Shown here piece after piece: positions 442 to 58,050 of a stretch of DNA of 64,000 bases; position 1 is the first letter of the stretch; each line of letters opens with the position of its first letter. Origin of the DNA: Roseovarius indicus (lineage in GTDB: Bacteria; Pseudomonadota; Alphaproteobacteria; Rhodobacterales; Rhodobacteraceae). The translations under genes were made by a program, and so were the position numbers. The DNA is taken from assembly GCF_008728195.1 (NCBI RefSeq), contig NZ_CP031598.1, forward strand, positions 1,798,001 to 1,862,000. The letters run 5' to 3'. A model generated the notes under the pieces. That model had not been told where the DNA came from. It ran no database searches and was given only the letters and a program-made list of their open reading frames with translations.

Positions 442-485
442 ACGTCGGTATTACGTCGGTATTTTGTCGGTATCACGTCGGTGCG
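442..485 (+). repeat. Four-unit 11-bp tandem repeat (GTCGGTAT array), copy A
   Basis: Four consecutive 11-bp units read ACGTCGGTATT, ACGTCGGTATT, TTGTCGGTATC and ACGTCGGTGCG. The array fills half of the gap between the alcohol dehydrogenase and the racemase-family gene. Copies B (43063-43106) and C (56996-57039) have the same length and unit size. There are no spacers, so it is not a CRISPR array. Function unknown. Confidence 0.9.
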
Positions 486-28215: not shown

Positions 28216-28222
28216 GTTTCGA

Positions 28223-28270
28223 CCCGTCACAACGGCTACCTGACGTGACGGGAAAATCTTAATGGAGCAA
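28223..28270 (+). ncRNA. SAM/SAH riboswitch upstream of metK
   Basis: CCCGTCAC pairs with GTGACGGG around the loop AACGGCTACCTGAC, followed by AAAATCTT and AATGGAGCA. This matches the SAM/SAH riboswitch consensus: a short hairpin whose loop forms a pseudoknot with a downstream strand containing the GGAG ribosome site. Ligand binding hides the GGAG of metK, giving translational feedback. The class is known only upstream of metK in Rhodobacterales. The metK ATG is six bases beyond. Confidence 0.93.
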
Positions 28271-34147: not shown

Positions 34148-34289
34148 GGGCGTCCCTCAAGCGATTGAACCGACAATTGCCTTCGCGATCTAATGCCATT
34201 GAATTTGCGCCCCGGGGTGAGTCGTGTCAAGAAACGGGCGCGGATGGGTGAGGGCTGGTTGGCCTCTTTGCCGGAAATGTCCGGAAAAT

Positions 34290-34666
34290 GCGCGGAGGGC
34301 CTGTAAGCCGGATTCTGTCCCGGGTTGCCCCGGGGATGACCATTCATCTGGGCCTGCTGTTACCAACAGGCTCGTGCTGCCAACCCGGACCGCGGGGCCA
34401 AGGCCGGCCCAAAATGCGGTCCCTATTCGGCATTGCTCCCGGTGGGGCTTGCCGTGCCGGTCCGGTTGCCCGTCCCGCGGTGGGCTCTTACCCCACCGTT
34501 TCACCCTTACCCCGCGTGGTTCGCCGAAACGAATGGCAGGGCGGTCTGTTTTCTGTGGCGCTTTCCCTCGGGTTGCCCCGGCCGGGCGTTACCCGGCACC
34601 GTCGCCTTGTGGAGTCCGGACTTTCCTCGCCACCTTGCGGTGGTGCGGCCATCCGGCCCTCCGCGC
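34290..34666 (-). ncRNA. rnpB: RNase P RNA (class A)
   Basis: Read on the minus strand, the ends pair as helix P1 (GCGCGGAGGGCC with GGCCCTCCGCGC). The universal GAGGAAAGTCCGGACTCCAC block follows near the 5' end. Other conserved parts are GGGTAACGCCCGGC, AGGGAAAGCGCCACAGAAA, GGGTAAGGGTGAAA, GGTAAGAGCCCACC and the 3' GACAGAATCCGGCTTACAG. The length of about 377 nt is normal. It is the catalytic RNA that trims tRNA 5' leaders. The exact ends are set by P1 and may be off by a few bases. Its promoter probably overlaps the 3' end of the amidase gene. Confidence 0.97.
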
Positions 34667-42431: not shown

Positions 42432-42932
42432 ATGCCGTACGAGTGGAACGCATCGTCTAAGCCGACAGGCACCGTGCGCCGCCTGCGCCTGTGGCCGCAC
42501 CGGTCACTGCCGCGCCGGGGGTTTGCCGCGTTCATCCTCGCGACCTTCACGCTGATCACCATCCCGCTCTACCCGCTGCTTGGCACGATCGTGCTCTGGG
42601 GGCTGCTGCCCTTCCTGCTGCTGGCCGTGGCCGGGCTCTGGTGGGGGCTCGAGCGGTCCTATCGCGATGGCACCCTCGAAGAGGAACTGACCATCGACGC
42701 CGAGCAGATCCGCCTGACTCGGACAGACCCGAAAGGCGCGAGGAAGGAATGGGAATGCCAGAGCTACTGGGCCAAGGCCACGATGCACGAGAAAGGCGGG
42801 CCGGTGCCGCATTACGTCACGCTCAGCGGCAAGGGCCGCGAGGTCGAGATCGGCGCCTTCCTGTCGGAGGACGAGCGCAAGGCGCTCTACGGCGAACTAT
42901 CGGATGCGCTGCGCCAGGCGACCAGGCCGTAG
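42432..42932 (+). CDS. DUF2244 domain membrane protein
   Basis: A 166-residue protein with two adjacent transmembrane helices (about 32-75), a WWGLERSYRDG loop and a C-terminal cytosolic part (RKEWECQSYWAKATMHE, HYVTLSGKGREVEIGAFLSEDERKALY) characteristic of DUF2244. It is often found near cytochrome oxidase or envelope genes in alphaproteobacteria; function unknown. Its TAG stop codon lies inside a dispersed GTAGGGTGGGT repeat, so the repeat supplies the end of the gene. Confidence 0.85.
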   Translation: MPYEWNASSKPTGTVRRLRLWPHRSLPRRGFAAFILATFTLITIPLYPLLGTIVLWGLLPFLLLAVAGLWWGLERSYRDGTLEEELTIDAEQIRLTRTDPKGARKEWECQSYWAKATMHEKGGPVPHYVTLSGKGREVEIGAFLSEDERKALYGELSDALRQATRP

Positions 42933-42991: not shown

Positions 42992-43036
42992 CGAATTCTT
43001 TAAAAGAATTCGACCCGATATCTTTTCAAGATATCG
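42992..43036. repeat. Paired palindromes between convergent genes
   Basis: CGAATTCTT-TAA-AAGAATTCG (42992-43012) and, three bases on, CGATATCTT-TTC-AAGATATCG (43016-43036). They lie in the convergent gap between DUF2244 and yqeY. Confidence 0.9.
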
Positions 43037-43062: not shown

Positions 43063-43106
43063 AACACCGACAAAATACCGACGTTATACCGACGCGATAC
43101 CGACGT
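43063..43106 (-). repeat. Four-unit 11-bp tandem repeat (GTCGGTAT array), copy B
   Basis: On the minus strand the units read ACGTCGGTATC, GCGTCGGTATA, ACGTCGGTATT and TTGTCGGTGTT. The array is 48 bp after the yqeY stop codon, in the convergent gap. Confidence 0.9.
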
Positions 43107-43153
43107 CGCGTTTGCCGCCGAATTCGTTAACGCAGCACGACGCGCGGCCCCGG

Positions 43154-43618
43154 TCAGGCCAGCCGTTCCTTAACCTTCGGACCGACCATGCCGAAATCCA
43201 TCTGGCCGGTGTATTTCTCTTTCAGCCGGCCCATGATCTTGCCCATGTCGCGGATCGACGTGGCGCCGGTATCCTTGATCGCCTTGTCGATGGCGGCGTC
43301 CACCTCAGACTCGTCAAGCGGGCGGGGCAGGTACTCGGCGATGATCTCGATCTCGCGCTGCTCCCGCTCTGCCAGGTCGAGCCGGCCGCCTTCTTCATAG
43401 GCGCGCACGCTTTCCTGCCGCTGCTTGGTCATCTTGCCGAGAATGGCCATGATGTCGGCATCGGTCAGGTCGGTATCGCCATCGGCGCCGCGGCGGGCGA
43501 TGTCCTGGTCCTTGATGGCCGCATTGATCAGCCGCAGCGTCGCCAGACGCGCGGTGTCTTTTTCTTTCATGGCCTGTTTCAGCGCAGTGTTGACCTGCTC
43601 TCTCAATCCCATCGACAT
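43154..43618 (-). CDS. GatB/YqeY domain protein
   Basis: A 154-residue YqeY-type protein: an N-terminal helical bundle (LREQVNTALKQAMKEKDTARLATLRLINAAIKDQ) and a C-terminal tail domain like that of GatB (IIAEYLPRPLDESEVDAAIDKAI, IRDMGKIMGRLKEKYTGQMDFG). It may bind tRNA, but the biochemical role is not settled. The ATG at 43618 has GGGG just upstream; one two codons later is possible. It is divergent from carA. Confidence 0.9.
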   Translation of the reverse strand: MSMGLREQVNTALKQAMKEKDTARLATLRLINAAIKDQDIARRGADGDTDLTDADIMAILGKMTKQRQESVRAYEEGGRLDLAEREQREIEIIAEYLPRPLDESEVDAAIDKAIKDTGATSIRDMGKIMGRLKEKYTGQMDFGMVGPKVKERLA

Positions 43619-55923: not shown

Positions 55924-56853
55924 TCAGAGGCCGGATTGGGCGATATCCTGAACCAGCACCGGAACGGGCGGGTTGGCGGGGGGCGTTTCGCCGATCAGGA
56001 GCAGGTCGGAGGCGTCGATATGGCCGGCGAACCACGAGGCGAGCGCGACCGGGTCGTCGGGGCCTGTGGTGGGGCCGTCGACCGCGTCGAGGACGATTTT
56101 CGAGGGGGCCCAGACACTTATCTGGCCGTTCTTCATGGACCAGTCGAGCTCGGTACGGCTGCCCACGACGACGCAGCGGTCGTCGCGGCCCGCGAGCACC
56201 CAGGCGTTCTGTTCGAGCGCCAGAAGGTCGACGCGGCGTTGGGTCATGCGGTGGCCGGTTTGCGGCGCGGCGGTGTCGGCATGGCCGACGCAGAGGATCA
56301 CCGGCTCGGCGCGGGCTTCGAGCTGGTCGAGCCAGCGGGCGAGGTTGGGCGAGCGGATGGCGGCGTTGGTGAGGTAGACGACATGGGGGTGGGGCGCGGT
56401 GTCGTGGTGGGGCGTGACCGGCTTGGTTTTCAGGTCCGAGACGGAACGGACGATCTCGACGCCGAGGGCGCCGGGGCCGCGGTCGAGTTTCTCGATGCGG
56501 ACGAAGGTGCGGACGGCCTGCGGCTCCCACAGGATGCGTTCGGCGATGCGGTCTGCGAGTGTTTCCAGCAGGTTCAGGCGTTCTTCGGCCAGCGCCGCGT
56601 GGATCGCCTCGGTCACCTTGTCGTAGCTGAGGATGCGGTCGACATCGTCGTCGATCGGGTCGGTGAGGGGCCGGACCTCGACCACCACGTTGAAGGAGAC
56701 GCGCTGGGTTGTGCCGCGCTCGGCCTGGAAGGCGCCGATCTCGACCTCGACCACATGATCGCGCACGGAAATGCGGTCGAGCGGCCCGTCGGGGGCCGTG
56801 GCATCGGCGCGGGCCGAGGGGTGGGCGAAAGCGAGGCGGATTTCGTTGGACAT
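55924..56853 (-). CDS. folB: Dihydroneopterin aldolase with C-terminal extension
   Basis: A 309-residue protein. The first 125 residues are a FolB aldolase (DRISVRDHVVEVEIGAFQAERGTTQRVSFNVVVEV, LSYDKV, LNLLETLADRIAERIL). The other 180 or so form an unrecognised second region with strands such as PHVVYLTNAAIRSPNLARWLDQLEA. Typical FolB is about 120 residues, so more than half of this protein is extra. The extension is, to my knowledge, usual in Rhodobacterales, but its job is not known. It is upstream of folP. Confidence 0.88.
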   Translation of the reverse strand: MSNEIRLAFAHPSARADATAPDGPLDRISVRDHVVEVEIGAFQAERGTTQRVSFNVVVEVRPLTDPIDDDVDRILSYDKVTEAIHAALAEERLNLLETLADRIAERILWEPQAVRTFVRIEKLDRGPGALGVEIVRSVSDLKTKPVTPHHDTAPHPHVVYLTNAAIRSPNLARWLDQLEARAEPVILCVGHADTAAPQTGHRMTQRRVDLLALEQNAWVLAGRDDRCVVVGSRTELDWSMKNGQISVWAPSKIVLDAVDGPTTGPDDPVALASWFAGHIDASDLLLIGETPPANPPVPVLVQDIAQSGL

Positions 56854-56995
56854 GGCGCGTCCTCCGGCAAGGTCAGTGGGGCGGGGGATAGCATGGGCCG
56901 AGACGAGGGGGGAAGGGCGAATGCGACGGGGCAGGGCGCGGAGGCGGCAGGGTTGGCGATTCGATGGTTAACGGCGTTGATTTGCTGGGATCGGG

Positions 56996-57039
56996 ACGTC
57001 GGTATCACGTCGGTATTTTGTCGGTATCGCGTCGGTATC
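56996..57039 (+). repeat. Four-unit 11-bp tandem repeat (GTCGGTAT array), copy C
   Basis: Units read ACGTCGGTATC, ACGTCGGTATT, TTGTCGGTATC and GCGTCGGTATC. Here the array lies in a divergent promoter region, 143 bp from the folB start and 229 bp from the metallohydrolase start. The rest of this 414-bp gap holds nothing else I recognise. Confidence 0.9.
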
Positions 57040-57267
57040 GGCGTCTGTGGGGGCGGGGGTAAATGTGGCGCGCGGTGCGCAACGGGCCAGATGTGGGGTG
57101 GGGCGCAACGGGGATGGGGCGGCGCGGTGGACGCGGGATGTGCAAAATTCCTCTGTCCGTCGGCCGTGACACTCGCCGCGCCGGGCGAATGCACTATTCT
57201 CTCTGCGGACAGTCGAAGACATGTCGACGTCTGACGACGCCACGCAACAAACCCGGGAGGTTCCCAC

Positions 57268-58050
57268 ATGACGACCAGACGCAATTTCCTGATTGGCAGT
57301 GCCGCTGCCGGAACGGTGACGGTTCTGCCCTCGCTCGCACTTGCGGCCGAGGACGGCGCCAGCATGAGCTTCATGGATGGCAAACTGACCATTCACCCGA
57401 TTTCGCACGCTTCCTTTGTCATGGAGACGCCGGCGGGCGTGATCTATGTCGATCCGGTGGGCGAGGTCACGGATTACGAAGGCATGCCGGACCCGGAGCT
57501 CATCCTCGTGACGCACCGGCATGGCGACCATTTCAACGCCGAGTTGCTGGGCATGATGCCCGACGTGCCGATCCTGACCAATGCGGATGTGATGGGCATG
57601 ATGCCCGAGGAGATGCAGGGCCAGGCGCAGAGCATCGCGGCGGGCGAGAGCACCGAGATGATGGGTGTCGGGATCGAGGCGGTGCCGGCCTACAACATCA
57701 CCGAGGGGCGGATGGATTTTCACCCGCAGGACCGGGGCGATATCGGCTTTGTGCTGACGATCGACGGGAGCCGGGTGTATATCTCGGGCGACACGGAAGG
57801 CACCGACGAGATGCGCGCGCTCGAGGATATCGACGTGGCGCTGGTGTGCATGAACCTGCCCTTCACCATGACGGCGGAGCAGGCGGCGGAGGCCGTGGCC
57901 GAGTTCAATCCGGGCGTGGTGATCCCCTATCACTATCGCGGCCGGGATGGCGGCACGCAGGACCCGGAAGCCTTCGCGCAGATGCTGAACGATGCGGGGG
58001 CCGAGACCGAGGTCAAGCTGCATGACTGGTACAACGGCGAGCTGAGCTGA
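57268..58050 (+). CDS. Tat-exported MBL-fold metallohydrolase
   Basis: A 260-residue metallo-beta-lactamase-fold hydrolase. The N-terminus has a twin-arginine signal (TTRRNFLIGSAAAG, cleavage after ALA near 26), so it is exported folded to the periplasm. The metal site is THRHGDHF (His83, His85, Asp87, His88), with a late VYISGDTEG and VIPYHYRG. The substrate is unknown. GGGAGGTTCCCAC lies before the ATG. A repeat and terminator follow. Confidence 0.9.
   Translation: MTTRRNFLIGSAAAGTVTVLPSLALAAEDGASMSFMDGKLTIHPISHASFVMETPAGVIYVDPVGEVTDYEGMPDPELILVTHRHGDHFNAELLGMMPDVPILTNADVMGMMPEEMQGQAQSIAAGESTEMMGVGIEAVPAYNITEGRMDFHPQDRGDIGFVLTIDGSRVYISGDTEGTDEMRALEDIDVALVCMNLPFTMTAEQAAEAVAEFNPGVVIPYHYRGRDGGTQDPEAFAQMLNDAGAETEVKLHDWYNGELS

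Follow-up and report, generated by a model that had tools for sequence, protein, structure and literature searches.

The stretch of DNA analysed here (the window, 64,000 nt) comes from Roseovarius indicus (assembly GCF_008728195.1, genome G000 below; contig NZ_CP031598.1, positions 1,798,001-1,862,000) and holds three arrays of 11-bp direct repeats between genes, together with a class A RNase P RNA and a SAM/SAH riboswitch (Table 1). All three arrays, A, B and C, are present where the first-pass annotation had placed them, and its description of their surroundings as same-strand (A), convergent (B) and divergent (C) proved right by our own gene calls. At gathering thresholds, Rfam assigned no family to the arrays. 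The window contains 13 copies of the motif GTCGGTAT, compared with 0.69 expected and a maximum of 4 in 100 shuffles, and the pattern GTCGGT-N5-GTCGGT-N5-GTCGGT gave 169 matches genome-wide, compared with 0 for the reversed control pattern. The motif is thus clearly commoner than in shuffled sequence, the first point on which the earlier description had been open to refutation.

Table 1. Arrays, motifs of their surroundings and structured RNAs in the window (position 1 is its first letter)
Feature	Position	Strand	Remarks
Array A	442..485	+	four 11-bp units; between two minus-strand genes (1-414, 499-1584)
Array B	43063..43106	-	four 11-bp units; between convergent genes (42432-42932 +, 43154-43612 -)
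Array C	56996..57039	+	four 11-bp units; between divergent genes (55924-56853 -, 57268-58050 +)
GTTAAC upstream of array B	43126..43131	-	offset -27; leading G of the usual motif missing; may be chance
GANTC (GATTC) of array C composite	56958..56962	+	
Upstream GGTTAA of array C composite	56966..56971	+	
GGTAAA at the downstream GGTTAA position, array C	57058..57063	+	92 bp after the upstream copy
GCGCAAC, first copy, distal part of array C composite	57077..57083	+	
GCGCAAC, second copy, distal part of array C composite	57103..57109	+	
SAM/SAH riboswitch	28221-28269		Rfam
RNase P RNA (class A)	34288-34664		Rfam

Allowing up to two mismatches, we found 100 four-unit matches in the genome (overlapping registers counted), all of them on the main replicon C1 (5,445,172 bp) and none on C2-C5 (450,820, 125,285, 144,735 and 7,053 bp). 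The 1.94 Mb fetched round all 100 matches contain at least 91 arrays, about one per 60 kb of C1, a lower bound that leaves room for weaker or shorter arrays on C1 beyond the fetched DNA. Four exact GTCGGT cores are present in 79/91 arrays and four units with a core match of at least 5/6 in 87/91, with a weak fifth unit in 4. The claim that the arrays consist of exactly four units therefore holds in this genome; it fails as a wider rule, as relatives carry two- and three-unit arrays. The core sequence first given for the units does not usually extend to unit four, which in 83/91 arrays, including arrays A and B, is GTCGGTG and not GTCGGTAT. The spacers between units differ from copy to copy and the core stays constant, one spacer often being TTT and the others mostly ending in AC or GC, as in a binding site that is maintained, and unlike a recent duplication.

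Do the arrays stand alone in their gaps? Using 640 random array-free intergenic places as controls, we found GGTTAA on the array strand within 60 bp upstream of 42/91 arrays (vs 10/640 controls), at offset -32 or -33 in 39 of these 42, and within 75 bp downstream of 30/91 (vs 5/640); GANTC lies within 60 bp upstream of 49/91 (vs 65/640). The same flanks were found at the 174 foreign loci, where upstream GGTTAA occurs in 47, downstream GGTTAA in 37 and GANTC in 61. At least one GGTTAA flank is present in 47/91 copies and brings the element to about 110 bp or more. The other 44/91 lack it altogether, which counts against a composite docking site as proposed below; the gaps of arrays without GGTTAA have a median length of 210 bp, compared with 354 bp for those with it. 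Both GGTTAA copies occur in 25 arrays, at a distance of 91-94 bp in 19, 102-104 bp in 5 and 80 bp in 1, so the two main distance classes (24/25) differ by one helical turn. About half of the copies thus show the order GANTC, GGTTAA, helically phased A/T, array, GGTTAA. The flanking motifs are rarely met away from arrays in the fetched DNA (32/37, 21/21 and 9/9 beside arrays), and GAGATGTTG-N(1-10)-GCGCAAC occurs 9 times in the 1.94 Mb, all 9 beside arrays and on the same strand.

The A/T content upstream of the arrays peaks near -8, -18, -29 and -38, and its autocorrelation has maxima at lags of 10-11 (0.59 and 0.56 in this genome; 0.77 and 0.73 in 171 foreign arrays). At positions -9 to -7, AAA (34) and TTT (17) exceed mixed A/T (7) in this genome, a preference that is weaker in the foreign arrays (AAA 51, TTT 19, mixed A/T 23). 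As an A-tract is accepted on either strand, the sequences suggest that the region upstream is read by its shape or is bent, and the constant phase would fit DNA wrapped in a nucleoprotein complex. The idea put forward in the first-pass annotation, that a protein could bind each unit on one face of the helix, would fit as well, because the upstream A/T is phased at 10-11 bp. Within the window, array C is a near-full composite, in which GGTAAA replaces the downstream GGTTAA, and arrays A and B have hardly any flank, or a degenerate one, beside their cores. A repeat of two near-palindromes (GAATTCTTTAAAAGAATTC and GATATCTTTTCAAGATATC) adjoins array B (window ~42993-43035), and repeats of the same kind lie downstream of at least two further arrays, at C1:281598 and C1:4988426.

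By our own gene calls, 89/91 arrays are intergenic, if overlaps with genes of no more than 20 bp are tolerated. Junctions of 60 bp or longer show an excess of arrays where they are convergent (30/86 arrays vs 11.1 expected) and a deficit where they are divergent (14/86 vs 24.6 expected). Close pairs are scarce: there are no intervals below 5 kb (7.2 expected) and 13 below 20 kb (25.6 expected). The coefficient of variation (CV) of the intervals is 0.61, compared with a random median of 0.89, if the observed and the random sets are both stripped of their two largest gaps; when every gap is retained, the CV is not unusual (0.93 vs 0.98 random), which counts against the docking-site reading. From origin to terminus, successive 0.34-Mb bins hold 13, 17, 10, 7, 7, 14, 10 and 13 arrays, a roughly even distribution. 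The two largest array-free gaps (C1 0.94-1.21 and 1.37-1.80 Mb), in which the samples mostly show weaker skew and partly lower GC, are perhaps acquired DNA; given such long and possibly acquired stretches, arrays could mark the native chromosome. Beside two different arrays, at C1:490536 and C1:935412 (L185 and L193), we noticed predicted proteins that share the N-terminus MTLPQDVIGVDIAKDWIDVFF and look like an IS110-family transposase; from these, the gaps that hold arrays may be insertion targets.

What sets the direction of an array? C1 carries a DnaA-like motif at C1:478, and the GC skew of this replicon, as sampled, is mostly positive to ~2.75 Mb and mostly negative thereafter, with local reversals. 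The array strand agrees with the sign of the local GC skew in 89/91 arrays (±2.5 kb) and in 88/91 when ±5 kb are taken and ±300 bp round the array excluded; the test considers signs only. The majority neighbouring coding strand, in contrast, matches array direction in only 39/91, and of the 52 arrays opposed to it, 50 still match the skew. Array direction thus follows leading-strand skew and not genes. By simple replichore halves, only 67/91 arrays are in leading-strand orientation, a figure that counts against the docking-site reading; most of the exceptions sit in local skew reversals, which would represent inversions that carried their arrays along. The arrays could serve as markers of replication strand and of inversions in these genomes. 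In other genomes, which were sampled and not mapped as closely as G000, 106/117 arrays match the local skew sign (several loci per genome, not independent), as do 43/48 at titled loci outside Roseovarius, 37 of the 117 arrays being without a title. In Pseudooceanicola spongiae, the 71 two-unit matches, 34 on one strand and 37 on the other, form no clear two-arm pattern by eye, which again counts against the docking-site reading; all 10 fetched loci of these 71 matches agree with the local skew. The later units of the arrays in this species (L338-L365) are often changed (e.g. AACGGT), and the arrays are often followed by GCGATTT, which suggests that the specificity of a reader protein may have shifted.

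Are the arrays also kept in place? In the fetched part of this genome, which the junction test covers, orthologous junctions that hold a foreign array bear one here in 16/23 cases, all 16 in the same direction, compared with 0/156 for orthologous junctions without a foreign array; the 16 matches fall at 11 different junctions, come in part from near relatives (proteins 93-99% identical in some cases), are not independent and contain one repeat, as L173 and L277 have the same letters and are both counted. L197 was excluded from the counts where it overlaps the window, and L058, which is the same place as L034, from the junction test. The other 7/23 junctions with a foreign array have none here, which counts against the docking-site reading. 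At the junction of array A, we found an array at the orthologous junction in G400 (L278), two units at the same place in G417 and arrays behind the same gene in G400 and G404; the stretch inspected in G396, G398, G402, G410 and G412 has no array, and some relatives have short gaps with no array trace. At lpdA, 4/27 same-genus genomes (G454, G470, G422 and G469) carry an array of three or four units in the same antisense place, with the core intact and the flanking spacer differing by eye. On the other side of the balance, 7/11 array-bearing relatives have no array there; in G278, which has no genome-wide match, the place seems by eye to hold the decayed remains of an array. Unit number changes and single sites come and go, and many sites are long kept in place and direction. 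Of the two doubts that the first-pass annotation had raised, that unit number might vary freely and that conservation between relatives might be lacking, the former is borne out in that the number varies, whereas the latter does not apply at many sites.

How widespread are the arrays? The three-unit pattern is present in 25/394 genomes of the family, and a stricter pattern in 2/289 genomes of a class sample, both from the own family, with 0/285 outside it; among the genomes sampled, arrays were found in one family only. A named scan returned at least 117 stretches, and 80/80 titles listed were Rhodobacteraceae, Rhodobacterales or member genera (Roseovarius, Salinihabitans, Pseudooceanicola, Shimia, Silicimonas, Sulfitobacter, Boseongicola and others). 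In the genus itself (own genome included) the distribution is patchy, with arrays in 36, 39 or 41/84 genomes by three patterns and counts of 0 to 181 matches. As 43/84 genomes have no match to the relaxed pattern, any function must be dispensable or replaceable, a further point against a docking site. On an lpdA tree of 28 genomes, the array state needs 4 changes, compared with a shuffled mean of 9.3, and strongly supported branches force 2 of the 4; G396 has none, whereas two-unit matches number dozens in G404 and G400, which strongly supported branches place as its sisters. A search for diverged intergenic arrays with an 11-bp period gave none over threshold in 200 kb each of G399 and G278, two genomes in which the patterns have no match, a weak test in which only ~3 arrays are expected per genome at the density of G000. 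Beyond bacterial chromosomes, blastn with one 76-bp query gave no match in phages and plasmids. The exact pattern occurs in 6 of 2.9 million viral contigs: L412 and L413 look the same kind by eye, and L408, L409, L410 and L411 have three-unit GTCGGTAT with other flanks, L408 being equal to L411 in its letters.

Based on the observed copy number and composite geometry, together with the polarity along the skew and the conservation in place, we consider it most likely that the arrays are polar docking sites for a DNA-binding protein specific to the lineage, which would help to organise the chromosome or act in connection with its replication; to this reading we give about an even chance. The first-pass annotation had named chromosome organisation or a replication mark as possible roles, and this part of its interpretation fits the restriction of the four-unit matches to the main replicon, the leading-strand skew, the few close pairs, the avoidance of divergent gaps and again the conservation in place. 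One sequence-specific protein would bind head-to-tail on successive helical turns, at four units in this genome, and the helix-phased A/T tracts upstream would curve the DNA round the bound complex; GANTC and GGTTAA at fixed distance would extend the nucleoprotein structure in about half of the copies. With the sites kept at ~50-kb intervals in leading-strand direction, a process that runs from origin to terminus, i.e. segregation, condensation or the replication fork, would meet them one way round. Lineages without arrays would have lost the reader. More tentatively, the arrays might be a new class of polar chromosome boundary or anchor, in which phased bends and a head-to-tail array give the chromosome arm its direction every ~50 kb; here, the lineage-specific protein would act on condensin or the replication fork, in the manner of eukaryotic oriented insulators. 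This stronger version is possible but less likely than not.

Could the arrays instead be copies of a mobile element? A non-autonomous, mobile-like repeat that had spread into intergenic DNA with a bias as to replication strand and was then inherited in place would account for the dispersed intergenic copies, for flank motifs that are almost confined to arrays in the fetched DNA and for the none-or-many distribution among relatives. Transposons that target single strands at forks have such a strand bias, and the traceless short gaps at the array A junction in some relatives would also fit. We nevertheless consider this origin unlikely, as the core is intact at conserved junctions, 44 arrays have no GGTTAA flank, the spacers differ between copies, unlike those of recent duplicates, close pairs are few, and neither end repeats nor target duplications were seen by eye.

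Head-to-tail 11-bp repeats are also typical of the OmpR/PhoB family, and a regulon, in which a factor of this type binds the arrays as operators and acts on the neighbouring genes, would explain the half-sites, their conserved positions by genes and the location of some arrays just before start codons, e.g. that of lpdA. Association with promoters is, however, the opposite of what we found, since convergent gaps are enriched and divergent ones depleted; moreover, direction tracks skew rather than genes, and the neighbour genes have no common theme (by eye, from N-termini), so that a regulon is in our view distinctly improbable. Slightly less credible still are polar replication-fork barriers or restart sites (Ter-like) that are permissive to forks from the origin: the polarity of the arrays along the leading strand would suit them, as would their absence from the smaller contigs as four-unit matches, but fork traps cluster near the terminus, whereas the arrays are spread roughly uniformly from origin to terminus.

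FtsK guides (KOPS-like) or other architecture-imparting octamers would share the leading-strand bias and an octamer core with the arrays, but the sites are sparse and do not rise toward the terminus, which makes this reading very improbable. FtsK is disfavoured as the array reader because its gamma recognition segment, TSYIQRKLAIGYNKAARLVEQME, is invariant with array presence, being identical in 10 array-bearing and 10 array-free genomes save one A-to-G change (G442, array-bearing). A gamma domain above cut-off is present in 82/84 genomes, nearly all of which have one, and second matches do not track arrays (those of G400 and G431 are below cut-off; that of G448 is a fragment at a contig end). 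Another candidate reader, an AP2-domain protein (PF00847), was suggested by ACCGAC, which resembles the plant DRE core. It was rejected, as the domain occurs in only 2/84 genus genomes, G458 and G467, both array-bearing, and is absent in G000 and the other array-bearing genomes. Neither candidate thus yielded a reader protein, which counts against the docking-site reading.

The arrays bear on an open question, namely what gives bacterial chromosome arms their direction beyond FtsK-guiding octamers, and they would constitute a new class of element if the proposed docking sites proved to have a dedicated reader that organises the chromosome. The sites are rare, strongly polar, positionally conserved and of clear anatomy, and the group has cultivated members. 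Close relatives without arrays offer a natural presence/absence experiment: a reader would be expected to come and go with the arrays, and sister species could be compared in their chromosome conformation.

How do the arrays compare with known systems? Among the titles and abstract openings of open-licence literature, we found no description of an element like them. Plasmid centromeres of the ParR type consist of 11-bp direct repeats bound by ParR, with wrapped DNA, in one cluster beside the parMR genes. They have the head-to-tail 11-bp repeat in common with the arrays, but each is a single plasmid cluster, whereas the arrays amount to ~90 copies on the main replicon with varied neighbours. 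The sites of Noc, SlmA and MatP are tens of dispersed sites for one organising protein and are excluded from, or confined to, the terminus; these sites are palindromic, in contrast to the asymmetric, polar and roughly uniformly distributed arrays. Closer in form are the recognition repeats of Streptomyces TraB and clt-like sites, 8-bp direct repeats which, as the arrays, occur in clusters dispersed on the chromosome and which are read by a plasmid-borne translocase.

According to PMC5993296, AIMS are 8-bp sequences that become both more abundant and more strongly strand-biased toward the terminus. KOPS/SRS and AIMS resemble the arrays as short sequences biased to leading strands, an orientation that the arrays show in 88/91 cases by local skew and in 67/91 by replichore halves. 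The rise of KOPS and AIMS toward the terminus, however, has no counterpart in the 0.34-Mb bins: the arrays are tandem, often part of a composite of ~110 bp or more, and roughly uniform at ~1 per 60 kb. KOPS and AIMS are read by the gamma domain of FtsK, and the gamma segment does not vary here with the presence of arrays. The STAR elements of staphylococci are interspersed intergenic direct repeats with loci that differ between species (PMC3532100). They are like the arrays in forming intergenic clusters of direct repeats, with loci that grow and shrink. Whereas STAR loci vary between species, many array junctions are conserved between species together with the direction of the array (16/23 vs 0/156), and array polarity follows the skew of the chromosome.
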